Of a DNA stretch of 10,197 nt, positions 1 through 10,197 are shown in pieces. How positions within the stretch are numbered: the first letter of the stretch is position 1; each line of letters begins with the position of its first letter. The notes beneath the pieces are model-generated. The model saw only the letters and a program-made list of their open reading frames with translations, was not told the origin of the DNA and ran no database searches. This DNA comes from an uncultured Selenomonadales bacterium (GTDB lineage Bacteria > Bacillota_C > Negativicutes > Selenomonadales > Selenomonadaceae). The position numbers and the translations under genes were made by a program. The DNA is taken from contig CAMJNB010000016.1 of NCBI GenBank assembly GCA_946407175.1, positions 1 through 10,197 of the forward strand, in the 5' to 3' direction.

Positions 1-98
1 AAACCTATGCGCGAGTCTTTGATATCCATCAGCAACATTTTGCCGACTTCTTGCTTGATAAGTTCCTGCAATTTTTCTATACGCAGTTGATTGCTCAT
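1..98 (-). CDS. rbfA: Ribosome-binding factor A, N-terminal fragment
   Basis: RbfA binds the 30S subunit near the 5' end of 16S rRNA and helps late maturation and cold adaptation. Only the first 32 codons lie in the window. They read MSNQLRIEKLQELIKQEVG, then KMLLMDIKDSRIGF. This fits the family start: a basic Arg/Lys-rich first helix followed by a D-x-R-I-G-F segment leading into the KH-like core. The ATG at 98-96 has an AGAGGCGG-like ribosome binding site about 5 bases upstream. The neighbour upstream is yfcE rather than infB, the usual partner in Firmicutes. No convincing promoter is seen in the 77-base gap, so read-through from yfcE is likely. The call rests on a short fragment, but the N-terminal pattern is characteristic. 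Confidence 0.8.
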   Translation of the reverse strand, partial: MSNQLRIEKLQELIKQEVGKMLLMDIKDSRIG

Positions 99-144
99 TT
101 TTTTCCGCCTCTTTTGAAACAGTCGGAATAAGAATGAAAAATTA

Positions 145-186
145 ATTCTAAATTCTTAATTCTAGATTCTTAATTCTAGATTCTTA
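145..186. repeat. Heptamer tandem array, ATTCTNN type
   Basis: Six consecutive 7-bp units begin with ATTCT: one ATTCTAA, then alternating ATTCTTA and ATTCTAG, so the higher-order period is 14 bp. The array overlaps the 3' end of yfcE and supplies its TAG stop (CTA on the plus strand at 176-178) and its last residues. A related array with the same core lies at 5787-5821. Confidence 0.9.
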
Positions 187-745
187 ATTCCATTAGTACT
201 TCGCCGCTGTCAAGGTCGAAAATTTTAATATCCTCGTCGGTGATAACGGCGACGGAAGTCTTTTTGTCTTCGCGATTTGTAAGGTACGGTGACGGCGTGC
301 CGGGATTGAGAAAAATCGTATTGCCGCGCTTTTCCAAAACGTTTTTGTGGACGTGACCGGTTATGAAAATGTCGGCTTTAAGATGCTCCGCCATAGAATT
401 TTTTTCCTCGTCACTCATCACTGTATGTCCGTGCGTCAAGACAATTCTTTTACCATTGGCGTAAACGTAAGCATACGGCGCTTGAATAGGCAAGTTGATA
501 ACCATTTGATCCACTTCCGAATCGCAGTTGCCGCGACAGATTATAATCGGAATTTCTGAATTGTTGATTCTGTTTGCCAATGCTTTCGGCGCGTAGTCAT
601 CGCCCTTGCAGTTGGGATTGTTGGGACCGTGATTGAGTACGTCACCTGCATGCAAAATTAAATCGGCGCCTTCAAAAAATTTTTCGCAAGCCATTACAAA
701 ACGTCCTTCGTAGCCGTGCGTATCGCTTATAACACCTATCTTCAT
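176..745 (-). CDS. yfcE: YfcE-type metallophosphoesterase (phosphodiesterase)
   Basis: Small single-domain metal-dependent phosphodiesterase of the YfcE/MJ0936 group. E. coli YfcE hydrolyses artificial phosphodiesters and its physiological substrate is unclear. Using the ATG at 745, the protein has 189 residues, close to the 184 of E. coli YfcE. Metal-binding motifs appear in order: D8-T-H10, G34-D35 followed by VLNHGP, G72-N73-C-D-SEVDQM, H105-G-H107 and G130-H-V-H133. The GDVLNHGP and GNCDSEVDQ stretches are typical of YfcE itself rather than of generic phosphatases. The start is fixed by AAGGGAG eight bases upstream; a longer in-frame reading has no such site and runs back into the efp terminator. 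A promoter lies at 778-806. The C-terminus (MELRI-stop) is encoded by a heptamer repeat array, so the tail is probably not conserved. It may be co-transcribed with rbfA. Confidence 0.92.
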   Translation of the reverse strand: MKIGVISDTHGYEGRFVMACEKFFEGADLILHAGDVLNHGPNNPNCKGDDYAPKALANRINNSEIPIIICRGNCDSEVDQMVINLPIQAPYAYVYANGKRIVLTHGHTVMSDEEKNSMAEHLKADIFITGHVHKNVLEKRGNTIFLNPGTPSPYLTNREDKKTSVAVITDEDIKIFDLDSGEVLMELRI

Positions 746-777
746 TAAAATCGCTCCCTTCAAAAAATCTGCAGAAA

Positions 778-806
778 AGTATATCAAAAACGCCGAAATT
801 TTACAA
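778..806 (-). promoter_or_regulatory. Sigma-70-type promoter for yfcE
   Basis: On the minus strand, a TTGTAA -35 box (plus-strand 801-806) is followed 17 bases later by a TATACT -10 box (778-783). Transcription would start near 771, giving a leader of about 25 bases that carries the AAGGGAG site. The -35 box lies immediately downstream of the T-run of the efp terminator, so efp and yfcE transcription are insulated within a few bases. Both boxes and the spacing match the consensus well; assignment is by eye. Confidence 0.65.
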
Positions 807-807
807 C

Positions 808-838
808 AAAAAAACCTTGCAGAATAATTCCGCAAGGT
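808..838 (-). terminator. Rho-independent terminator of efp (rpoC-efp unit)
   Basis: On the minus strand, arms ACCTTGCGGAAT and ATTCTGCAAGGT (plus 814-838) pair over up to 12 bp with a single G-U wobble. The 3' arm is followed by seven T residues (plus-strand A run 808-814). It lies about 90 bases past the efp stop, beyond a heptamer array, and there is no other intrinsic terminator between rpoC and this point. Confidence 0.88.
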
Positions 839-846
839 CAGATTGG

Positions 847-930
847 AGCTTAGAGAGCGTTTAGCTTACAGCTTACAGCTTGTAGCTTACAGACTTCTGA
901 AAGCTAAAAGCTGAAACCTGAAAGCTAATT
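847..930. repeat. Heptamer tandem array, 12 units, AGCTT/GCTNAAA type
   Basis: Twelve 7-bp units in unbroken phase fill the space between the efp terminator and the efp stop codon. The left part is built on ACAGCTT, GTAGCTT and TTAGCTT. The right part is built on GCTAAAA, GCTGAAA, CCTGAAA and GCTAATT. The last unit ends at 930, directly against the efp stop codon (931-933). The unit sequence drifts along the array while the 7-bp register holds. Confidence 0.88.
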
Positions 931-1488
931 TTAAGCGCGTTCAATGTAGTTGCCGGTCCGAGTATCAATTCTCAAAACGTCGCCTTCATTGATGAAAAGC
1001 GGCACGCGGACAACGTAGCCTGTTTCAAGCGTGGCATTTTTCGTGGCGCCGGTAGCAGTGTTGCCTTTAACAGCCGGTTCGCATTCGGTGACTTTCAATT
1101 CTACCGAATTGGGAAGGTTAACGCCGATAATGCGGTCTTTGAAAGTCTGCAGGTTGACTTCCATATTTTCCATAAGATAGTTAAGCGCGTCGCCGAGTTG
1201 CTCTTTAGTAAGTTCGGTCTGCTCGTAGGTTTCGGTGTCCATAAAGGTGTAGTTGCCGCCCTCTTCGTAGAGGTACTGCATTTTGCGCGTGTCGAGACGT
1301 GCAGGCGGCATTTTTTCATTGGGGTTGAAGGTGCGCTCAACTACGGCGCCTGTTTCGACGTTTTTAATTTTCGTGCGGACAAACGCCGCGCCTTTGCCGG
1401 GTTTTACGTGCTGAAATTCGACGACTTGCCATGCACTGCCGTCAATTTCTATTGTCAAGCCCGTTCTGAAATCTGTACTTGAAATCAA
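931..1488 (-). CDS. efp: Elongation factor P
   Basis: EF-P enters the ribosomal E site and relieves stalling at polyproline stretches. The three OB-like domains are complete: an N-terminal KOW-like domain with [12 protein letters not shown] and [12 protein letters not shown], a middle domain with QYLYEEGG and FMDTETYEQ, and a C-terminal domain with GDTATG-like GNTATGATK and VPLFINEGD. The modifiable loop lysine is in P-G-K-G. With the TTG start at 1488 the protein has 185 residues and this lysine is residue 32, exactly as in Bacillus subtilis EF-P. An ATG three codons upstream (1497) is in frame, but its ribosome binding site would touch the start codon. The gene follows rpoC after about 70 bases made almost wholly of heptamer repeats with no promoter, so it is probably co-transcribed with rpoC. 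A strong terminator follows. Confidence 0.95.
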
Positions 1489-1497
1489 TGGTAACAT

Positions 1498-1503
1498 CTC
1501 CTT
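1498..1503 (-). promoter_or_regulatory. Ribosome binding site that decides the efp start
   Basis: AAGGAG on the minus strand ends directly against the ATG at 1497 (zero spacing) but nine bases before the TTG at 1488. The nine-base spacing is the usable one and yields an N-terminus [10 protein letters not shown] that aligns with known EF-P proteins. Confidence 0.7.
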
Positions 1504-1507
1504 TTTA

Positions 1508-1570
1508 TTAGGGGTTAGGTTTTAGGGGTTAGCTTTTAGGGTGTAACTCCTAGCCCCTACTCACTAACAC
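1508..1570. repeat. Heptamer tandem array, NTAGGGG type, overlapping the rpoC stop
   Basis: Nine units keep TA at positions 2-3 of every heptamer: TTAGGGG, TTAGGTT, TTAGGGG, TTAGCTT, TTAGGGT, then GTAACTC, CTAGCCC, CTACTCA and CTAACAC. The array fills most of the rpoC-efp gap and runs into rpoC, providing its TAG stop (CTA at 1557-1559) and last codons. G-rich units at the left and C-rich units at the right could pair as a loose hairpin in RNA, but there is no T-run, so it is not a terminator. Confidence 0.85.
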
Positions 1571-4500
1571 TTTCTTCTTTTTCAAGGTCGATAACTTCCA
1601 AATCGCGATAACGCGGCATGCCGGTACCTGCAGGAATAAGTTTGCCGATAATGACGTTTTCTTTCAAACCTATAAGCGGATCTACCTTGCCTTTAATCGC
1701 GGCGTCGGTCAAAACCTTAGTAGTCTCTTGGAAACTTGCCGCGCTTAAGAACGAGTCCGTAGCAAGTGACGCCTTAGTAATGCCCAAAAGTATCGGCTTG
1801 GCAACCGCCGGCATTTTACCAGCCTCAATCGCCTTTGTATTCGCCGCCTCAAAAACGTTTATATCTACAAATTCGCCGGGCAAAAAGTCTGTGGAGCCGG
1901 ACTCTTCAATTTTAACTTTGTGCAACATTTGACGCACGATAACTTCAATATGCTTGTCGTTAATCTCAACGCCCTGCGACTTGTAAACCTTTTGCACTTC
2001 GTAAACGAGGTAGCGTTGCGTCTCCTTAAGCCCGCAGACGCGCAGAATGTCATGAGGATTTTTGGCGCCTTCTGTAAGTCTGTCACCCGCCTTAACCAAA
2101 TCGCCTTCTTCAACCAACCTGCGCGACGAGAAAGGTACGGTGTAGTCACGCGGCGCACCGATATCCGGCTTAATGGTAATTTGCGGCAAGTCATTTTTCT
2201 CATTAATGCCCATAGTGACTTCGCCGTCAACTTCCGCGATAATTGCGTTATGCTTAGGTTTACGCGCCTCAAAAAGTTCCTCGACGCGCGGCAGACCTTG
2301 AGTGATATCGTCGCCTGCAACGCCGCCGGTATGGAAAGTACGCATTGTAAGCTGGGTACCGGGTTCACCGATTGACTGCGCGGCGATAATGCCGACCGCC
2401 TCACCGACTTCAACCGGCGTCTGATTTGCAAGGTCACGACCGTAGCACTTAATACAAACGCCGAATTGCGATTTACACGTCAAGACACTGCGAATTTTAA
2501 CTCTCGGATTGCCGGACGCCTCTTTAACCTTGACAATTTTCTTTGCAAGCTTTTTGTCAATCATATCATTGATTTTGGCAACCGGCTTGCCGTCCGCGTC
2601 GAAAATATTTTCTGCAAGGTAACGACCTAAAATTCTGTCCTCAAGCGATTCAATGACGCCGCTGCCTTCGGTTATCGCCTCAACTTCAATGCCGCGTACG
2701 TTGTTGTTGCGTACGAAAATTTCGCCGATATCGTTATCCGCCAAAATTTCTTCCACCATGTCATGCGTCAAGCGTTCGCCTTCTTCGTAGGTGTAAAGCG
2801 TCAATTCAACCGGTTTGGCAAGCTCCTTGTCAAGAATCTCATGTATGAAGGAATGGAGAAGTTCCTCACGTTTAGTTTCATCGCGCGTACCGAGAGTGAT
2901 TGTTTCCTGTACGAGAGAGTGACTTGCCGAGTTGGGAGAAGTCAAACTCCTGCCGCGCAGAGTAATTGTTTCGGCGCCGAGTTCACCGATTTTTTCAAGG
3001 CATTTGTCATCCAAAATCGTGTCACGCGGTATTACAACTTCGCCTGTTTCGTTATTTATAATATCATCAGCAAGTATACGACCTAAAAGCGCGTCGTTTA
3101 AAATTTCCAGCGCGTCAAATGTTTCATGAGCAAGCAAGGCACGTTCCAACTTCAAATTAATTGTGGAAACGTCGCAGTCTTCCTCTCTTACAATTACGTC
3201 CTGCGCAACGTCAACAAGGCGGCGCGTCAAATAACCGGAGTCAGCCGTTCTAAGCGCGGTATCGGCAAGACCTTTTCTAGCGCCGTGACTTGAAATGAAG
3301 TAGTCAGAAACGCTTAAGCCTTCGCGGAAGTTCGCGGTTATCGGTAAGTCGATAATTTTACCGGAGGGGTCCGCCATAAGTCCGCGCATACCTGCAAGCT
3401 GACGCATCTGCTGTTTATTACCGCGCGCGCCGCTGTCCGCCATCATATATATGGGGTTAAACGGATCCATATTCTCCATCATCGCGTCGGCTACGTCTTC
3501 CGTCGCCTTATTCCAAAAGTCAACAACTTTTTGATAACGCTCTTCTTCAGATAAAAGACCTTGACGGAATTGACGTTCAACGCGGTCAACTTTTTTCTTG
3601 GTGTCGGCAATGATATCTTTCTTTTTCGGCGGTACGATAACGTCGGAAATTGCAACGGTCATACCGGCAAGGCAGGCGTAATGGTAGCCGAGATTTTTAA
3701 CCTCGTCGATAACCTCCGCCGTAACTGTCGCGCCAAATTCGTCGAAACACGCGGCTACAAGTTTACCAAGCTCCTTTTTATTCATAACCTTGCCGTATTG
3801 CCAACTGCCGTCGTCCGCCTTCGTGCAGTAGCGCAGACTGGGTTTAAGCTTTTCATTAAAAATCATTCTGCCGAGTGAAGTTTTTACAAGCAGGTAACCG
3901 CTTTTAACTTCCTTTCTCACGTTGTCGGGAAGTTGGTTTACGTTAAGCCGCGCGGTAATTTCCGCCTGCAAGTCAAGCGTTCCCTGCCTATTCGCCATTA
4001 TCGCTTCTTCAATGCCGGTTACGATTTTACCTTCGCCCTTAGCGCCGGGACGTAACGTAGTCATGTAGTAAGTACCCAAAACCATATCTTGTGTCGGCAC
4101 GATAATGGGCTTGCCGTCTTTCGGTGCAAGAATGTGATTCGCCGCCAGCATTAATACGCGAGCCTCCGCCTGCGCCTCTGCACTTAAGGGAAGGTGAATC
4201 GCCATTTGGTCACCGTCGAAGTCAGCATTGTACGCGGTACAAGCAAGCGGGTGAAGGCGAAGTGCGCGACCTTCAGTCAAAACAGGTTCAAAGGCTTGAA
4301 TGCCGAGTCTGTGAAGTGTCGGTGCACGGTTTAAAAGCACGGGGTGTTCCTTGATAACTTCTTCCAGCACTTCCCAAACTATCGGTTCTGCGCGTTCAAC
4401 TTTTCTTTTCGCAGATTTAATCGTAGTGTTGCCGTCGGCGGAAAGTTTTTTCATGACAAAGGGCTTGAAAAGTTCCAACGCCATTTCTTTAGGCAAGCCG

Positions 4501-5594
4501 CATTGGTGCAGTTTTAATTCCGGTCCTACGACGATAACCGAACGACCTGAATAGTCAACGCGCTTACCGAGAAGGTTTTGGCGGAAACGTCCTTGCTTAC
4601 CCTTTAACATGTCACTTAAAGATTTCAGTGAACGATTGCCGGGACCGGTTACGGGACGACCGCGCCTGCCGTTATCAATCAGCGCGTCAACCGCCTCTTG
4701 CAACATACGCTTTTCATTGCGGACGATTATGTCAGGCGCCTCAAGACCGAGAAGGCGTTTAAGGCGATTGTTGCGGTTAATTACGCGGCGATAGAGGTCA
4801 TTTAAATCACTGGTAGCGAATCTGCCGCCGTCAAGCTGTACCATAGGACGAAGTTCCGGCGGAATTACGGGAATAACTTCCATAATCATCCATTCGGGAC
4901 GATTGCCGGATTTACGAAAAGCCTCAACAACTTCAAGGCGGCGAATGGCACGAATACGTTTTTGACTGGACGCGGTTTTAAGTTCTTCGCGCAGTTGCTT
5001 ACTCATTTCGTCCAAGTCCAATTCGCGCAGAAGGTATTGAATAGCCTCCGCGCCCATACCGACTTTGAAATTTTTTCTGCCGTACTTTTCGCAAGCCATA
5101 CGGTATTCGCTTTCAGTGAGAATTTGTTTTTTTTCAATCTTTTTTTCGGACTTGTCATTAACAACGACATTTTCCGGCGCTTCAAGTACGATATAGGAGG
5201 CAAAGTAGAGAACCTTTTCTAAGTTTCGCGGCGAAATGTCGAGAATAAGTCCCATTCGGCTGGGTATGCCTTTAAAGTACCAAATGTGCGAAACGGGCGC
5301 GGCAAGTTCAATATGCCCCATGCGTTCACGGCGCACTTTTGCCCGCGTCACTTCAACGCCGCAACGATCGCAGATTATTCCCTTGTCACGAACTCTTTTA
5401 TATTTTCCGCAGTGGCATTCCCAATCGCGCGTAGGTCCGAAGATGCGTTCGCAAAAAAGTCCGTCACGCTCCGGTTTAAGCGTACGATAATTAATCGTCT
5501 CCGGCTTTTTCACTTCACCGTGCGACCATTCGCGGATTTTTTCCGGCGATGCCAGTCCCACGCGCATTGAATCGAAAACATTTACGTCAAGCAT
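1557..5594 (-). CDS. rpoC: DNA-directed RNA polymerase subunit beta-prime
   Basis: Catalytic large subunit of RNA polymerase, 1345 residues from the ATG at 5594, which has AAAGGA six bases upstream. In order: first zinc site C60, C62, C75, C78; the catalytic [12 protein letters not shown] at 456-467 with Mg-binding D458, D460, D462; bridge helix near 773-802; second zinc site C807, C1040, C1047, C1050; trigger loop near 1064-1095 without the large insertion found there in E. coli. The family length in Bacillus is about 1200. The extra length here lies mostly between C807 and C1040, 233 residues apart against about 74 in E. coli, and looks like duplication of the local barrel module. An upstream in-frame GTG (5609) is rejected because it overlaps the ribosome binding site. 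rpoB is not upstream; the gene has its own promoter and is followed by efp. Confidence 0.98.
2475..3176 (-). other. Expanded barrel-module region inside RpoC (C807 to C1040)
   Basis: Residues 829-882 (LGRILADDI, then [17 protein letters not shown] and ITLRGRSLT) and residues 983-1039 (LGRYLAENI, then [18 protein letters not shown] and KIRSVLT) follow the same order of motifs. Both match the single E. coli segment that has LGRVTAEDV followed by VRSVVSC. A third, more diverged copy may lie near 914-963 ([14 protein letters not shown], then GEIFVRNN). Only the last copy runs into the zinc cysteines C1040, C1047 and C1050. The duplication is read by eye. Such insertions in RNA polymerase are often lineage-specific, so this one may be shared by relatives. 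Confidence 0.65.
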
Positions 5595-5654
5595 GGTAAT
5601 TCCTTTCACTAAAAAAAATATTTATATCAGCTGGCTTAGTTGCTAAGTTTTTTT

Positions 5655-5681
5655 ACGGCGGAAAAAAATCTTTCCCGCCGT
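5655..5681 (-). promoter_or_regulatory. Hairpin at the 5' end of the rpoC leader
   Basis: On the minus strand, ACGGCGG pairs with CCGCCGT, extendable by GAAA against TTTT to about 11 bp with one G-U and a 5-base loop. It would lie within a few bases of the predicted transcription start. It is followed by an A-run, not a T-run, so it is not a terminator for rpoC. A second small hairpin (CTTAG-CAA-CTAAG, plus 5635-5647) follows. A role in mRNA stability or regulation is possible but not shown. Confidence 0.55.
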
Positions 5682-5691
5682 GCATTTAGTT

Positions 5692-5720
5692 ATTTTAATG
5701 TTTTAATTAATTCTAGTCAA
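5692..5720 (-). promoter_or_regulatory. Sigma-70-type promoter for rpoC
   Basis: On the minus strand, TTGACT (plus 5715-5720) and TAAAAT (plus 5692-5697) are separated by 17 bases in an AT-rich context. The predicted start near 5685 gives a leader of about 90 bases before the rpoC ATG. It is a close match to consensus and the best candidate in the gap. Confidence 0.7.
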
Positions 5721-5728
5721 GATATTTG

Positions 5729-5763
5729 TTAGGGATTAGGGGCTAGGAACGAGGAACTAGGAT
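5729..5763. repeat. Heptamer tandem array, NTAGGNN type
   Basis: Five 7-bp units: TTAGGGA, TTAGGGG, CTAGGAA, CGAGGAA, CTAGGAT. The core TAGG matches the array at 1508-1570, so similar arrays lie on both sides of rpoC in the same orientation. It begins eight bases beyond the rpoC -35 box. Confidence 0.85.
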
Positions 5764-5786
5764 TTTTAATTACGTCTTACGCATTA

Positions 5787-5821
5787 ATTCTTAATTCTAC
5801 ATTCTTCATTCTTAATTCAAT
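5787..5821. repeat. Heptamer tandem array, ATTCTNN type
   Basis: Units ATTCTTA, ATTCTAC, ATTCTTC, ATTCTTA and a partial ATTCAAT follow each other in strict 7-bp phase. The same core as the array at 145-186, 5.6 kb away. It ends eight bases before the -35 box of the receptor promoter. Confidence 0.85.
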
Positions 5822-5829
5822 AAAAGTCA

Positions 5830-5859
5830 TTGCTATTTTCAGAATGTTTGTGTTATAAT
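5830..5859 (+). promoter_or_regulatory. Promoter of the TAXI receptor gene
   Basis: TTGCTA at 5830-5835 and a perfect TATAAT at 5854-5859, 18 bases apart. A TG just before the -10 box (TGT-TATAAT) makes it an extended -10 promoter. The predicted start near 5866 leaves a leader of about 34 bases with AAGGAG at 5886-5891. Confidence 0.82.
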
Positions 5860-5899
5860 TCGCATGAAAAGTTAGATTTTTTTGTAAGGAGTGATTTAG

Positions 5900-6865
5900 A
5901 TGAGTCCCGGTAAAATTTTTAAGAGAGTGGCAACATTTTGCTTAGCTCTTGCGGTAGCTGTAGGAGTTGCCGGTTGCGGCGGCGGACAATCCGGCGAAAA
6001 CTTCGTAAACATTGCTACCGGCGGTACGGCGGGTACTTATTACCCGATAGGCGGCGCCATTGCCGATATTATTAACAAAGACGTTAAAGACGTTAATGCC
6101 AGCGCTCAAAGTACGGGCGCGTCTGTTGCCAACATCAATATGCTTAGTGACCGGCAGGTTGATTTGGCGATTGTTCAAAACGATATCGCTTACTACGCCT
6201 TGAACGGTACTGAAATGTTTGAAAAGAAAATTGAAAACCTGCGCGGCGTCGCATCACTCTATCCCGAAACTTGCCAATTCGTAACGCTTGAAGGTTCCGG
6301 CATTAATTCAATCGCCGACCTTAAAGGCAAAAGAGTTGCAGTAGGTGCGGCAGGTAGCGGCGTTGAAGGCAACGTTCGCCAAATTCTCAAAGCTTATGGA
6401 ATGACTTATGACGATATAAACCCGCAATTCCTTTCATTCGCCGAAGGTGCTACCGCGCTTAAAGACGGCACGGTTGACGCCGCTTGCCTTACGGCAGGTT
6501 ATCCTACCGCCTCTGTACAGGATATCGCGTCACAAAAACAAATTCGCCTGATTCCGCTTGATTCCGACAAAATCGACGCACTCATTGCAGATTATCCCTT
6601 CTACACAAGAACTTCAATTCCGGCTAACACCTATCAAGGTTTCAGCGCCGAAGTTCCTACCGTCAGCGTAATGGCTATCCTCATTACCACCGACAAAATG
6701 ACGGATCAGCTCGGTTATGACATTACTAAGGCGATTTTAACCAACACCGATAAACTTTCTGCCGCGCATTCTGCCGCGAAGGCTATCAGCAAAGATACCG
6801 CGCTTAACGGTATGAATTTTATTAAGATGAATCCCGGCGCAGAAAAATTCTTGAAAGAAAAATAA
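5900..6865 (+). CDS. TAXI-family TRAP transporter solute receptor (lipoprotein)
   Basis: Periplasmic substrate-binding protein of the TAXI type, which hands a small organic substrate (glutamate or other carboxylates in the few studied cases) to a TRAP permease driven by an ion gradient. It has 321 residues, normal for the family. A signal peptide with a basic start and hydrophobic core ends in a lipobox V-A-G-C with C26 as the probable lipidated residue. The mature start FVNIATGGTAGTYYPIGGAIA is the TAXI hallmark, followed by the AQSTGASVANINML, D-L-A-I-V-Q-N-D and LKGKRVAVGAAGSG-VEGN segments. The start ATG has AAGGAG eight bases upstream. It has its own promoter and a terminator, and no TRAP permease subunit lies next to it, so its membrane partner must be elsewhere. 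The ligand cannot be predicted from the sequence. Confidence 0.93.
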   Translation: MSPGKIFKRVATFCLALAVAVGVAGCGGGQSGENFVNIATGGTAGTYYPIGGAIADIINKDVKDVNASAQSTGASVANINMLSDRQVDLAIVQNDIAYYALNGTEMFEKKIENLRGVASLYPETCQFVTLEGSGINSIADLKGKRVAVGAAGSGVEGNVRQILKAYGMTYDDINPQFLSFAEGATALKDGTVDAACLTAGYPTASVQDIASQKQIRLIPLDSDKIDALIADYPFYTRTSIPANTYQGFSAEVPTVSVMAILITTDKMTDQLGYDITKAILTNTDKLSAAHSAAKAISKDTALNGMNFIKMNPGAEKFLKEK

Positions 6866-6875
6866 TTAGTAGCCG

Positions 6876-6910
6876 GTAGCTCGTAGCTGGTAGCTCGTAG
6901 CTCGTAGCTG
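6876..6910. repeat. Heptamer tandem array, GTAGCTN type
   Basis: Five exact-phase units, GTAGCTC or GTAGCTG, starting ten bases after the receptor stop codon. This is the most regular array in the window. AGCT in each unit makes the array self-complementary, so the RNA could fold on itself. Confidence 0.92.
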
Positions 6911-6940
6911 ATGAATAATTTACAAGTTACCGGATAAAAG

Positions 6941-6961
6941 CTAATCGCTAATAACTAATCG
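6941..6961. repeat. Short heptamer array, CTAATNN type
   Basis: Three units CTAATCG, CTAATAA, CTAATCG. The final G is also the first base of the terminator stem, so array and terminator touch. Confidence 0.75.
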
Positions 6962-6986
6962 CTCCGAATGTTGGAGCTTTTTTTTT
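6961..6986 (+). terminator. Rho-independent terminator after the TAXI receptor
   Basis: GCTCC pairs with GGAGC around a 7-base loop, followed by nine T residues. The stem is short but the T-run is long. It ends only 18 bases before the glycosyltransferase ATG. Confidence 0.8.
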
Positions 6987-7004
6987 GCAACGAAAGGATT
7001 TCTT

Positions 7005-8132
7005 ATGCGTATTGCAATTTTTGAAAACATTATGACTGAAGGCGGTCACGAAGTCGACTTCGACAGAATTTTGGTTGAAGAATTTTTAGCACTCGGTCAC
7101 GACGTCAAATTTTACGTTCCCGCCAATTTTATTTTTAAATTCGATTACAAAGTTCCCGCCGTCAAACTCGCAGGTGACGCAGTGATTTACAGCACGTCGC
7201 GCGGCTTAAAAAAAATCGCCGCATCAATCAAGCGTGAAATTAATCGGCAACGTTGGTACAGTCAGCTTTTCGACGCACAAAAAAATTTCGACGCGCTAAT
7301 TGTTCCGACTTCCACCTACCGTTACCTGCGCGCACTCAATCACAACAGCTTAAAAAAAATTTCCGTGCCGCTGATTTTTATCCTGCACGGAATTAATCCC
7401 AATGAGTCTGCCAATTTCTTTGAACAGGCAGAAAAACTTTTGCCGTACCGTAACGTAAAACTTTGCGTGTTGACTTTGGATAAAAATTTTTTCGCCGGTA
7501 AACCTGCAAATATTTTTCCGACGTACCCGCCGACTTATACGCCGCGTGACGTTAAACTTTTTGAACGGCAGGTTGGTGACGAATTGCAAATTGGTTTTTT
7601 CGGTCAATATCGACGTGAAAAAAATCTGCGCGGTCTCCTTGATGTCTTCATTAACGCCGCCTATAAACGCAAGGTCAATCTGCTTGTACAGGGTTCAACA
7701 ATACATGAAGAAGACGCGGAAGACTTTGAAGAGATTATCGCGCAGTATAAAAATTATAACGGTTTGAGTTTTATGCACAAAAGTTTAATCGGCGCCGATT
7801 GGCAACGTGCAATTTTAAATGTCGACGCGCTTTTAATGCCGTACTCTGCGCCGCGTTATCGCTACCATTGGAGCGCCATGCTTTTCAACGCGATAGGCTA
7901 CAAAAAGCCGGTAATTGCGTCGAGTGAGATTAATCCCGAAGTTTGGCAGGATTACCGAATCGGTGAAACTTTTGAAAGCGGCAACTTGAAAGGTTTGGAC
8001 GCCGCGCTAAAAATTTTTATTGATAACTTTGATGAAAATGTTGCAACGTACAGACAGAATTTAAATGCCGCCGCGCAGATTTTTTCGCCGCAAAATTTCG
8101 CCTTAAACTTAATCAAGCTTTGCAACGGCTAA
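7005..8132 (+). CDS. GT-B fold glycosyltransferase, group 1/GT4-like
   Basis: Predicted cytoplasmic glycosyltransferase of 375 residues that would move a sugar from a nucleotide donor to an unknown acceptor, perhaps in surface polysaccharide synthesis. The N-terminal half opens with a Rossmann strand (MRIAIFENIMTEGGHEVDF) and has a helix-rich acceptor-side domain. The C-terminal half has the donor-side signature: IGFFGQYRREKNLRGLLDVF at 196-215 (R203, K206 typical), NVDALLMPYS at 272-281, and AIGYKKPVIASSEINPEV at 296-313. The usual acidic residue before the A-x-G-x-PVI motif is replaced by N295, so catalytic details are uncertain. The ATG has AAAGGA six bases upstream. No other polysaccharide gene is adjacent. 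A terminator sits just upstream, and its stop codon overlaps the stop of the converging gene. Confidence 0.82.
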   Translation: MRIAIFENIMTEGGHEVDFDRILVEEFLALGHDVKFYVPANFIFKFDYKVPAVKLAGDAVIYSTSRGLKKIAASIKREINRQRWYSQLFDAQKNFDALIVPTSTYRYLRALNHNSLKKISVPLIFILHGINPNESANFFEQAEKLLPYRNVKLCVLTLDKNFFAGKPANIFPTYPPTYTPRDVKLFERQVGDELQIGFFGQYRREKNLRGLLDVFINAAYKRKVNLLVQGSTIHEEDAEDFEEIIAQYKNYNGLSFMHKSLIGADWQRAILNVDALLMPYSAPRYRYHWSAMLFNAIGYKKPVIASSEINPEVWQDYRIGETFESGNLKGLDAALKIFIDNFDENVATYRQNLNAAAQIFSPQNFALNLIKLCNG

Positions 8133-9619
8133 ATTCTGATTCTAAGCGTCGTGGTGGTATTTGGTCTGCATTCAAAATTTCTTTCATTCGGCAATGACAC
8201 GCGCAGAATAAATTTATCGTTACGCGGCGGTGCGTCCGTCTGATTTTCCGAAACTTGCGGCGTTGCATTTATCGCGTCGGTAGGTTTGGCAGGTGGACTT
8301 TCAGTCGGTGAAGTCGAAGTGTCAGCAGGTGTCGCGGCATTTTCAGCGGCAGGTTGACTTTCAGTCGGTGCAGATTCAGCAGGTGTCGCGGCATTTTCAA
8401 CCGGCGGCGTCTCTGCAGGTGCGGTAACTTCTTCGGCGTAAGCTACTGAAAATAATTTTAATAAGGCTGATTGATTTTCCGCAGGTGCAGGTGTTTCAGT
8501 AGGCGCAGGTTCTTTAGCAGGTTCAACAGGCGGCGTATCAGTCGCGGCAGGTGTTTCAGTCGGTGCAGACTCTGTAGCCGCGTTTTCAGCCGGTGCATTT
8601 TCAGTAGCAGGTTGACTTTCAGTAGTCGGTAAATTTTCTGCGGCAGGTTCTGTAACTTCAGCCGGTGCAGGTTCGGGCGAAATTTTTTCAATTACAGTGC
8701 CGGTCAAGTTGTTGCCGTCAATGCTGTAACTGACAAGTTTGCCGAGCGGAATTTTATTAAACGTCTCTTCGCTGACTTCAGCGGCAAGCCAAAGTTCGTT
8801 GCTGTCACCGATTTTCGCAACAACGTCACCTGCTTGTAAGTCTTTTTGCGGTTCGGTTGAATAGTAAATCGTGCCGTCAACCGGCGCAATAATTTCAGTT
8901 TCTTGAGCCTCCTGCAGTGCAACATTCAAAGAAAGTTCCGCCTGCTTAATGGCGTTTTCGGCGCCGTACAAAACTGCGGGCGGCGTAGGTTGAAGTTCGT
9001 CGACGTATTCAATTTCTTCAACGTAAGTCGTCTCATACCGCACGCTTGATTCAGAATAGGTGTAAGAGGACGAATTAGCCTTCGCGTTTTCGTAGGCTTG
9101 TATCGCGGCGTCACGTTGCACAGCACTGACAGCGCCCATTTCAAAAAGTTCACGCATACGGTTTGCGCGTTCTTCCAAGCTTGCCAAATTAGCCGAGCCG
9201 CCGCCGCTTGTATGTGAAGATTCGGTGTAAACCGGCGTTTGAACTGCGCGGGTTCGTGTCACGGGGACTTTTACCCAAGTGCCTCTTTGCAACTCTTCAT
9301 AATTTTGGCGTGCAAGTTCGACGGTACTTTCAAGTTGCTCGATCATATCTTCGGTGACGCTGATTTCAAGCCGCGCTATCACGTCACCGGCTTTAACTTC
9401 GTCGCCGTCTTGAAATAAAAATTCGCTGACTCTGCCGTTTACCAAAGTACGCACGGAAACCATTGTACCGGTGACTTTGGCGTTTTCAATTTGTATTTCG
9501 CGTACTGCGTGGTAGTGTTCAAAGACGCCGTAACCAATCGCGCCTGCAGTTGCCAAAAGCAGAATCAAGCCGAATTTTATAAAAAATTTTACTTTACCTG
9601 AAAGGTCTATCGTTTCCAA
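8129..9619 (-). CDS. HlyD-family membrane fusion (periplasmic adaptor) protein
   Basis: Adaptor that links an inner-membrane exporter to the outer membrane. It has 496 residues: one N-terminal membrane segment (about 13-33), first half-lipoyl motif near 45-85 (VSVRTLVNGRVSEFLFQDGDEV-like, GDVIARLE), helical hairpin 87-240 with RANRMRELFEMGAVSAVQRD typical of HlyD proteins, second half-lipoyl near 242-270 (IIAPVDGTIYY, LQAGDVVAKIG), then a beta-barrel domain. That barrel is split by a Pro/Ala/Thr/Glu-rich stretch (about 314-467), after which it resumes with FILRVSLPNERNFECRPNTTTTLRIRI. The start is TTG at 9619, with AAGGAG six bases before it; no ATG fits. No exporter subunit is adjacent. It follows mutS2 by 72 bases and may be co-transcribed. 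Its stop overlaps that of the converging glycosyltransferase gene. Confidence 0.87.
   Translation of the reverse strand: METIDLSGKVKFFIKFGLILLLATAGAIGYGVFEHYHAVREIQIENAKVTGTMVSVRTLVNGRVSEFLFQDGDEVKAGDVIARLEISVTEDMIEQLESTVELARQNYEELQRGTWVKVPVTRTRAVQTPVYTESSHTSGGGSANLASLEERANRMRELFEMGAVSAVQRDAAIQAYENAKANSSSYTYSESSVRYETTYVEEIEYVDELQPTPPAVLYGAENAIKQAELSLNVALQEAQETEIIAPVDGTIYYSTEPQKDLQAGDVVAKIGDSNELWLAAEVSEETFNKIPLGKLVSYSIDGNNLTGTVIEKISPEPAPAEVTEPAAENLPTTESQPATENAPAENAATESAPTETPAATDTPPVEPAKEPAPTETPAPAENQSALLKLFSVAYAEEVTAPAETPPVENAATPAESAPTESQPAAENAATPADTSTSPTESPPAKPTDAINATPQVSENQTDAPPRNDKFILRVSLPNERNFECRPNTTTTLRIRI
8219..8680 (-). repeat. Low-complexity Pro/Ala/Thr/Glu coding stretch in the adaptor gene
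   Basis: About 154 codons made of recurring APTE, PAEN, AATPAE and ESQPA phrases. At DNA level there are exact direct repeats, for example a 23-base repeat at 8323-8345 and 8377-8399, offset by 54 bases (18 codons, in frame). This points to growth by tandem duplication. A single hydrophobic patch, SALLKLFSVAYAEE (residues 384-397), interrupts it. Confidence 0.85.
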
Positions 9620-9644
9620 AATATTCTCCTTTAGTGAGTAGTCA

Positions 9645-9694
9645 CTATCGATCTATCGATCCATCGATCCAGCCACTATCGATCCATCGATCTA
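9645..9694. repeat. Octamer tandem array, CNATCGAT type, rich in GATC
   Basis: Units CTATCGAT or CCATCGAT repeat with an 8-bp period, broken once by a 7-base CCAGCCA. It holds five GATC sites in about 45 bases. The array runs up to the mutS2 stop, and the TAG stop (CTA, 9692-9694) is the start of its last unit. An inverted repeat TAGTGA-GTAG-TCACTA (9632-9647) borders it on the side of the adaptor gene. Confidence 0.9.
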
Positions 9695-10197
9695 TTTCAG
9701 CGTTACCAGCGTGGCACCGGCGCCGCCTTCGTCAATGTCGGCAAGTACAAAACTTGCAACGGAATGATGCCTCCGCAAAAAATCTTGTACGCCTTGCCTA
9801 AGTGCACCCGTACCCTTGCCGTGAATGATTAAAACCTGCTTAAGCCCGGCAAGTTGCGCGTCGTCAATGAACTTGCCGCAGATAATTTCAGCCTCATCAA
9901 CCATCATGCCGCGTATGTCCAAATTTCGCGTGACGGTAGAAACTTTTTGCAGTAAAGACGTCGAACCGCGATTTGAACTTGAAACCGGAGTTGAAGTTAT
10001 CTCGGCGTGACTGATAAATCTGCAGTCAGAAAATTTTACCGTAGTTGTCAAGGCGCCGACCTGCGCGGTAAGTTTGTTGCCGTCCAAGTCGATTGAAAGA
10101 ATTTTGCCGTTTTGGTCAAGCGGCTTGATATAAACCGTGTCGCCTATTTCGAGAGATTCTTTGTTTATGCGCTTGCCTACGGATTTATCGGCAAGAA
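9692..10197 (-). CDS. mutS2: MutS2 (C-terminal part with Smr domain), cut by the window edge
   Basis: MutS2 proteins act in recombination control and, in Bacillus, in splitting collided ribosomes. The 167 visible residues are the C-terminal end. They open with a KOW-like strand region (LEIGDTVYIKPLDQNGKILSID) typical of the segment after the MutS2 ATPase. A linker rich in Ser/Thr follows. The Smr nuclease-like domain comes last: NLDIRG near 91-96, IIHGKGTGALRQGV near 123-136, and GGAGATLVTLK at the very end. The frame is open to the window edge, so the ATPase part lies outside. The LDxRG and HGKGTG motifs are intact. The downstream gene is the HlyD-type adaptor. Confidence 0.93.
   Translation of the reverse strand, partial: LADKSVGKRINKESLEIGDTVYIKPLDQNGKILSIDLDGNKLTAQVGALTTTVKFSDCRFISHAEITSTPVSSSNRGSTSLLQKVSTVTRNLDIRGMMVDEAEIICGKFIDDAQLAGLKQVLIIHGKGTGALRQGVQDFLRRHHSVASFVLADIDEGGAGATLVTLK

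Follow-up and report, generated by a model that had tools for sequence, protein, structure and literature searches.

Degenerate heptamer arrays with a TAG phase at gene borders in Selenomonadaceae

Tandem arrays in the gaps of the window

The stretch analysed here (the window) comprises 10,197 nucleotides of an uncultured Selenomonadales bacterium (assembly GCA_946407175.1, contig CAMJNB010000016.1, positions 1 to 10,197 of the forward strand), a rumen-type Selenomonadaceae genome; its subject is a set of short tandem arrays, mostly of 7-bp period, that lie between the genes. Pfam names in the window a phosphoesterase, EF-P, an NMT1-like/TAXI protein, a glycosyltransferase, an HlyD-like protein and an Smr-domain (MutS2-like) protein, and we read a further open reading frame (ORF) of 1350 codons as rpoC. 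A first-pass annotation, made from the letters alone, had placed the host among the diderm Firmicutes, and the closest records bear this out: the best matches of the TAXI-type substrate-binding protein (97%, 95%, 86%, 83%, 80% and 75% identity) are in metagenome-assembled genomes (MAGs) of goat, reindeer and water buffalo origin that carry the label Selenomonadaceae. Genome-wide statements below rest on samples from such relatives.

Six gaps (99-175, 751-930, 1498-1556, 5595-5899, 6866-7004 and 9620-9691) each hold one or two arrays, detected by Tandem Repeats Finder (TRF) and an autocorrelation scan (Table 1), whereas the seventh junction is a 4-bp overlap (8129-8132) of the glycosyltransferase and HlyD genes. 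Six period-7 arrays and one period-8 array were seen in the 832 bp of intergenic DNA; 1000 shuffles of these 832 bp gave three period-7 arrays in total, at most one per shuffle, and 300 shuffles of the whole window gave one (here and for the relatives, shuffles for array counts were first-order Markov). The arrays are confirmed as real, and the earlier claim that such arrays occupy nearly every gap holds for all six, with an 8-bp array in one; shuffled intergenic DNA almost never yields one. The coordinates first given agree within a few bases, except that what had been taken as one array at 847-930 is two, and that the scored part of an array drawn at 1508-1570 ends at 1541; the 8-bp array placed at 9645-9694 is recovered at 9645-9695. 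The change of unit from gap to gap under a constant 7-bp period is likewise supported.

Table 1. Arrays and arms in the gaps of the window
Feature	Position	Strand	Unit and context
Period-7 array	144..190	-	Unit AATTCTA, 14-bp double unit TTAATTCTAGATTC; found by TRF and autocorrelation scan; minus-strand reading GAATTAA/GAATCTA; contains phosphoesterase TAG stop codon (176-178)
Two facing period-7 arrays	863-888 and 897-926	-	AGCTTAC (863-888) and CTGAAAG (897-926); between EF-P and phosphoesterase genes
TAGG-type array	1508..1559	-	Between rpoC and EF-P gene; scored part 1508-1541, best as 14-bp double unit
TAG-type arm	5729..5762	+	TTAGGGA/CTAGGAA, period 7; left half of facing pair, divergent rpoC/TAXI gap
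Arm	5784..5818	+	TTAATTC/TTCATTC, period 7; right half of facing pair, divergent rpoC/TAXI gap
TAG-arm	6869..6909	+	Unit GTAGCTC, period 7; starts 3 bases past TAXI-gene stop codon
CTA-arm, weak	6940..6963	+	Unit GCTAATC; TRF score 34, 76% matches; immediately 5' of terminator-like site 6961-6977
8-bp array	9645..9695	-	Unit CTATCGAT; gap from Smr-domain (MutS2-like) gene to HlyD-like gene

The TAG stop codon of the MutS2-like gene (9692-9694) falls inside the array that TRF reports, and the TAG stop of rpoC (1557-1559) lies 7 bp from the next TAG, in phase, but beyond the scored part of its array. The facing arrays at 863..926 fold into a single hairpin (z -3.58 against dinucleotide shuffles, which were used for all window elements) followed by a terminator-like site at 839-813, and the whole facing pair in the rpoC/TAXI gap (5722-5822) folds with z -2.57.

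Period and TAG phase among the relatives

Samples of the relatives were scanned at periods 4 to 20 with a single score threshold. Period-7 arrays numbered 47 in G002, 49 in G005, 31 in G004, 23 in G015, 5 in G003 and one each in G011 and G009, with none in the samples of G006, G007 and G008; periods 5, 6, 9 and 10 reached at most two arrays each in these ten. Period 8 is represented by 25 arrays in G004, where 21 of the 29 arrays of period 8 or 16 carry the unit GATCGATN. Seven further samples gave 45 period-7 arrays in G001, 17 in G098, 15 in G363, 9 in G019, 4 each in G293 and G110 and 2 in G115, together with three of period 6 in G098 and a lead of period 8 (6) over period 7 (2) in G115. 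These densities are biased upward, since some or all contigs of G001, G002, G004, G005, G015 and G011 were chosen because they carried a match, and G363 and G293 (drawn from a phylum-wide set), G098, G110, G019 and G115 because they were genomes with many matches. All are fragmentary MAGs, so that the absence of a gene from any of them is weak evidence.

The first-pass annotation had made its reading depend on arrays of period 7 recurring outside the window and outnumbering those of nearby periods; they do, periods 5, 6, 9 and 10 contributing no more than three arrays each to any relative's sample, and the exceptions are the three samples with no period-7 array, the two with one each, and G115 with period 8 ahead. 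Also supported is a process that favours steps of 7, or of 8 for some units.

TAG, or its complement CTA, is the trinucleotide with the strongest 7-bp recurrence in intergenic DNA. Its occurrence at lag 7 exceeded expectation 22.5-fold in G002, 16.3-fold in G004, 15.0-fold in G005, 12.2-fold in G015 and 7.0-fold in G003, and 1.5-fold in both G006 and G011. At lags 5, 6 and 9 the five array-bearing samples gave 0.1 to 1.3 times expectation, and lag 8 was raised in G004 only (5.9). The tetramers between the TAGs are diverse (81 different ones in 451 units of G002), and the species have dialects: the tetramer after TAG is CTTG in 68/216 G004 units and TGAG in 29/146 G005 units. In arrays detected solely by their period, 0.76-0.89 of all deviations fell on the two most variable phases of the unit, against 0.62-0.73 if deviations were random. 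The clearest case of fixed and free positions is the unit TAGTNAG of G005, with 172 units in 20 stretches that had been fetched for their resemblance to a G002 hairpin (units were counted if they started with TAG or lay in its phase and matched at least four fixed letters): T stands at position 4 in 170, A at position 6 in 157 and G at position 7 in 154, and the free position 5 is A in 41, G in 50, C in 27 and T in 54. It had been suggested that the period and often a TA/TAG core are all that is conserved; the TAG core stands, but more is conserved than that, namely the fixed and free positions and, as described below, the polarity of paired arms and a rule for gene flanks.

That the arrays reflect neutral slippage only, arising anywhere and surviving where harmless, with the rest due to chance and history, would agree with their being mostly intergenic and depleted in divergent gaps, and a heptamer excess with a slippage proposal is already in print (PMC4679880). 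Set against this are the rank of the TAG phase above other triplets, the shared free positions, the use of one dialect at many loci and the order of pairs; the composition of TAGTNAG would moreover need a large difference in mutation rate between neighbouring positions. We consider slippage by itself very unlikely to suffice.

Of 189 family genomes, 70 contain the pattern (TAGN4)x3-TAG; G002 has 2565 places with it and 47 with the reversed control, and the high counts cluster in one block of the family genome list. Among 299 genomes drawn from the phylum, which include G002 and some other family members, 74 carry it, mostly at a handful of places; G363 (534 places, reversed control 5) and G293 (334, control 12) carry far more. 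In G298 (82 against 53), G486 (66 against 59) and G347 (50 against 45) pattern and reversed control scored about equally high, so that their counts are uninformative about TAG. Part of the family carries the trait heavily; in the rest of the phylum it is thin.

Two side observations concern array sequence itself. In a phylum relative (G308:C1:618866-618973) TAGCGTA is matched at least 13 times in an overlapping, unbroken run, which exceeds the arrays of the window's relatives in length and purity. At four loci of G005 (L152, L160, L162 and L070) the neighbourhood of the arrays seems to share a second dispersed sequence, GC-rich around GGACGCGGCG or GGACGCGCG, and in three of the four this GC-rich stretch is followed by AATTTGCGCCAAAAGAAAAG.

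Placement, pairing, turnover and folding

Gene borders were taken from our own simple ORF caller, and a few array clusters could not be placed in a gap (1/6 in the window, 2/47 in G002, 3/56 in G004, 3/41 in G005, 3/26 in G015 and 2/6 in G003). We define a TAG-arm (T) as at least three TAGs spaced at 7, 8 or 14 bp and a CTA-arm (C) as the same with CTA, arms within 80 bp of each other being neighbours; of 47 arms in G004, nine lay mostly inside called ORFs. Array clusters in co-directional gaps start next to the upstream stop codon (median distance 1.5 bp in G002, -1 in G004, 4 in G005, 3 in G015, 3 in G003 and 9.5 in the window), and their ends precede the next start by a median of 21 to 40 bp. 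The later samples gave 16 and 25.5 bp from stop and to start, respectively, in G363, 2 and 24 in G293, 1 and 52 in G098, -4 and 0.5 in G110, -0.5 and 27.5 in G001, -5 and 16 in G019, and 21 and 178 in G115. Taken alone, TAG-arms start 1.5 bp from the stop in G002, -3 in G004, 5 in G005, 6 in G015, 3 in G003 and -3 in the window, and CTA-arms end 26, 21, 20, 18, 97 and 29 bp before the start in the same order, the values for G003 and the window resting on two arms each. Clusters are about as dense in co-directional (3.6 per kb of gap) as in convergent gaps (4.1) and sparser in divergent ones (1.1; G002, G004, G005 and G015 pooled), and in the same four samples the median co-directional gap measures 60-112 bp with arrays versus 22-31 bp without.

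The stop codon is often part of the array. Genes with a TAG-arm at their end stop with TAG in 47 of 70 cases, and in 37 of these 47 the codon belongs to the run; over 13 samples and arrays of any type, TAG stops make up 78/169 at arrays versus 168/878 elsewhere (Fisher p 9.5e-13). The excess is strong in G002 (16/32 at arrays vs 21/142 elsewhere) and G004 (30/42 vs 29/123) and small in G005 (7/27 vs 16/84) and G001 (8/25 vs 19/76). Many arrays in G005 and G015 are of the GAATTAA type, which carries TAA.

Neighbouring arms of opposite type are ordered almost exclusively one way. Six samples including the window contained 40 T-C, 2 C-T, 3 T-T and 4 C-C neighbours (there were no arm pairs in G006 or G011) and seven further samples 11, 0, 4 and 4, giving a pooled order of 51 T-C versus 2 C-T. 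The signs of GC skew in adjacent period-7 arrays show the same order (plus-minus 38, minus-plus 2, p 1.5e-9; 13 pairs in other classes). Over all of G005 the TAGTNAG hairpin pattern has 44 T-C matches, which overlap and represent about twenty places, and no C-T match; in C-T order it occurs at two places in G002 and at none in G001 or G004. Where a gap has several arms, a T-arm stands at the stop side in 40/47 and a C-arm at the start side in 42/47, and single arms lie at -3 bp (T) and +23 bp (C) from stops.

Comparison of close genomes shows that the arrays turn over in place. Aligned window DNA shares 90-96% identity with G001 and 85-93% with G002, and 18 gaps could be compared among the three: six by hand, eight at breaks in the G002-G001 alignment, and four with G002 arrays inside aligned blocks (on the two G002 contigs used for the latter two sets nine of 17 array clusters were comparable, the rest being without G001 alignment on both sides). 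In 13 of the 18 both genomes have arrays and the sequence has changed, four have an array in one genome only, one has none in either, and in no gap is the array sequence intact. Part of an arm or a related unit is retained in three of the 13 (rpoC-efp, window versus G001; L060 2972; L062 17784), and at L062 4492-4529 each TAG has its aligned counterpart in the other genome and the four intervening bases are changed. Between the TAXI and glycosyltransferase genes the array changes next to a terminator-like site and a ribosome-binding region that are nearly identical; between the MutS2-like and HlyD genes an 8-bp array in the window corresponds to 7-bp TAGCTNN arms in G002; and at the rpoC/TAXI gap the left neighbour differs in G001. 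Among more distant relatives, the TAXI gap contains an array in G005 and none in G003 or G004.

In G001 (L175, near 1435-1515) three imperfect copies of about 22 bp, which do not form a heptamer array, are inserted at a gene border and are missing from G002, and within the window's HlyD-like gene (8288-8638) low-complexity repeats (54-bp and 18-bp by TRF) encode a segment rich in Pro, Ala, Glu and Thr whose length varies among relatives.

The roughly twenty hairpins that G005 has at different loci, similar to each other also in their loops and never in reversed order there, and the presence or absence of arrays between close genomes are what would be expected of a non-autonomous mobile palindrome family, comparable to miniature inverted-repeat transposable elements (MITEs) or repetitive extragenic palindromes (REPs), with TTTAG/CTAAA ends and arms that happen to be heptamer arrays. 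However, the sites checked by eye have neither a target duplication nor a constant junction, 110 arms are unpaired versus 40 pairs, unit families vary by locus, and G001, G002 and G004 lack a match to a Y1 transposase; mobility of this kind therefore appears unlikely to us.

Folding was assessed against mononucleotide shuffles for the relatives' pairs and single-unit arrays. T-C pairs fold better than their shuffles (mean z -5.3, 39 pairs), and a second count of paired clusters gave mean z -5.2 in G002 (18 clusters), -4.9 in G005 (6, median -1.3) and -1.3 in G004 (3). Single-unit arrays have z near 0 in G002, G003, G005 and G015 and -2.8 in G004, where a 4-bp palindrome is present in 46 of 47 units versus 20.0 expected; a universal hairpin was rejected on the ground that single-unit arrays outside G004 (mean z -2.76) fold no better than shuffles. 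No Rfam family matched the window at the gathering threshold. Terminator-like sites were not enriched in the window overall (18 vs 16.7 in shuffles), and such sites follow arrays in two of its gaps, so that the arrays are not simply the terminators. Promoter-like matches in the window numbered 23, about twice the shuffled mean of 11.4; two fall within the AATTCTA array (145-187), and arrays of this type can thus mimic promoter hexamers.

These data bear on whether the arrays are selected intercistronic punctuation, that is, hairpins or platforms for proteins that read the fixed heptamer positions and, for example, set 3' ends, insulate cistrons or protect mRNA. Such a role would account for fixed and free positions common to many loci, for the good folding and strong order of pairs, and for sites that persist while their units change, including the gap where only the bases between aligned TAGs differ. 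It sits less well with single-unit arrays that, G004 excepted, fold like shuffles, with window elements of which only 2/6 fall below z -2.5, with the gain and loss of sites in 4/18 gaps, with several unit families in one genome, and with terminator-like sites beside arrays in two window gaps. Selected punctuation is a possibility that we take seriously and yet hold to be on the doubtful side.

Relation to known repeats and origin of the arrays

Heptanucleotide repeats of heterocystous cyanobacteria (short tandemly repeated repetitive sequences, STRRs) are tandem and degenerate and lie between genes, and the first-pass annotation had likened the window's arrays to them; the likeness in style stands, but none of three STRR units (STRR1-3) formed a tandem pair in 15 samples. 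REPs and bacterial interspersed mosaic elements (BIMEs), with their REP-associated tyrosine transposases (RAYTs), are intergenic palindromic repeats placed after stop codons, whereas the arms here are tandem heptamers. The Y1 transposase (PF01797) matched 72 of 189 family genomes, all fragmentary MAGs, and had one partial match in G005 and none in G001, G002 or G004, on which ground a REP/RAYT system was set aside. Templated synthesis by a reverse transcriptase was also rejected, PF00078 being found in 64/189 family genomes, including G001, G002 and G004, and missing from the array-bearing G005, G015, G098, G110 and G019, as was loss of mismatch repair: MutL_C is found in 169/189 family genomes, including all ten sampled array-bearing ones, although among the 20 without a match G024, G105 and G128 do carry arrays. 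The DnaA-trio consists of successive TAG-like triplets, and this reading was dropped because the spacing here is 7.

Closer parallels are in print. Rehm et al. (2015; PMC4692102) describe heptamer repeats GGGNATC and GGGGA(C/T)T in Xanthomonas and Nostoc that are mostly intergenic and rare between divergent ORFs, lie with the sense strand near or over stop codons and the antisense strand up to 50 bp upstream of ORFs, form convergently oriented pairs (70 and 75 instances, respectively, in two genomes of Xanthomonas), and keep their sites between species while length and sequence vary; the authors propose quadruplexes and state that the function remains to be found. The arrays described here share with these the degenerate tandem heptamer with fixed and free positions, the mostly intergenic location and scarcity in divergent gaps, the stop-side sense and start-side antisense placement (single arms here showing the distances without an orientation bias), the persistence of sites under varying length and sequence, and the convergent inverted pairs, if we read the paper correctly as implying equal polarity. 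They differ in having several unit families per genome, the TAG phase, the capture of TAG stops, the change of unit family in place and period-8 variants. GGGAATC, GGGGATT and GGGGACT had no tandem pairs in 15 samples, and a four-run GGG motif was found in just 16 of 348 arrays from 13 samples (10/68 in G002, 4/55 in G001, 2/20 in G098, none in the other ten); the arrays thus belong to a broader heptamer class and not to the GGGNATC unit family.

The same counts bear on G-quadruplex elements as proposed for Xanthomonas and Nostoc. Placement and pairing are as in that class, and some units are G-rich (TAGGGAN, TAGAGGG), but with so few arrays carrying the motif quadruplexes cannot explain the class, though they could still matter for the G-rich minority; as a general account we hold them to be extremely improbable. 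A similar comparison applies to the TAACTGA arrays reported by MacGregor (2015; PMC4679880) from Beggiatoaceae, cyanobacteria and Bacteroidetes. These, too, are intergenic direct heptamer repeats at gene borders with stop codons in the forward unit and a patchy distribution over phyla; unlike ours they have one unit, mostly forward towards the start codon, and a single inverted pair in BOGUAY. No tandem TAACTGA pair was found in 15 samples. The same article cites Mrazek et al. (2007) for the abundance of heptamers and for the idea of a 7-nt polymerase contact, and a heptamer excess by itself is, on that citation, already known. Among the open-access papers listed in our searches, none gives an account of such arrays in Selenomonadaceae.

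We tentatively favour, as a plausible reading, degenerate heptamer arrays of the Xanthomonas/Nostoc kind that are made by 7-nt slippage, spread by template switching or gene conversion, and filtered at gene borders. DNA slippage in steps of 7 nt, or 8 nt for some units, would lengthen and shorten arrays; template switching or gene conversion among the arrays of one genome may give each species its own few heptamers. The placement is observed, and its cause may be that arrays survive at the least damaging positions, which are mostly those between a stop codon and the ribosome-binding site that follows it: there the G-over-C strand with TAG, reading away from the gene end, could provide a stop at once, and its C-rich complement would lead into the next start. 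The outcome of such a filter would be facing pairs of a TAG-arm and a CTA-arm, often able to form a hairpin. The period would follow from slippage in 7-nt steps, and the flank rule agrees with a possible selection at gene borders.

Several results weigh against this account. No change in copy number was observed directly, and arms appear as copies of each other in G002 (P 0.0075) but not in G005 (0.054), G015 (0.24) or G004 (1.0). The spacing rule, to judge by the later samples, is loose in G115, G098 and G110, and TAG stops are not in excess at arrays in G015 (1/14 vs 10/79 elsewhere) or in the window (1/3 vs 3/4). Single arms have no orientation bias (39 T and 43 C at the stop side), and slippage alone therefore gives no order bias; nor does it give a single free position shared by many loci, as in the 172 TAGTNAG units. 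Free positions facing each other across the stem are Watson-Crick in 7/54 versus 14.0 expected (P 0.017, 17 elements), which is suggestive only (an earlier, looser count that included incomplete units gave 5/68, 6/57 and 10/57 in three registers, with about 26% expected). The shared free positions and the near-one-way pair order point to an additional, sequence-specific constraint, and they would be compatible with a factor that recognises the arrays or with an element spreading as a single unit.

A broader proposal would take such a factor as its starting point: unrelated bacteria may have convergently evolved, or exchanged, an intergenic punctuation whose grammar (period 7, a fixed core with free positions, and facing arms with the stop codon and the ribosome-binding site as their anchors) is read in trans, the dialects co-evolving with the factor and unit families being replaced in place genome-wide. 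We regard this as conceivable, though improbable. Put most cautiously, the arrays belong to a repeat type already on record and follow stricter rules than had been described for it.

Genome-wide heptamer arrays in bacteria have been reported earlier without an established function (PMC4692102 and PMC4679880), and the present work adds as clues the TAG phase, the capture of stop codons and the change of unit family in place. Since the same rules of placement and polarity hold here with units mostly unable to form G-quadruplexes, the structural explanation offered for the Xanthomonas/Nostoc class is weakened. Within one bacterial family, array-rich and array-poor relatives can now be compared: if it is true that a factor reads the arrays, these genomes are the place to find it, and if there is no such factor, the arrays record 7-nt slippage and selection at gene borders.

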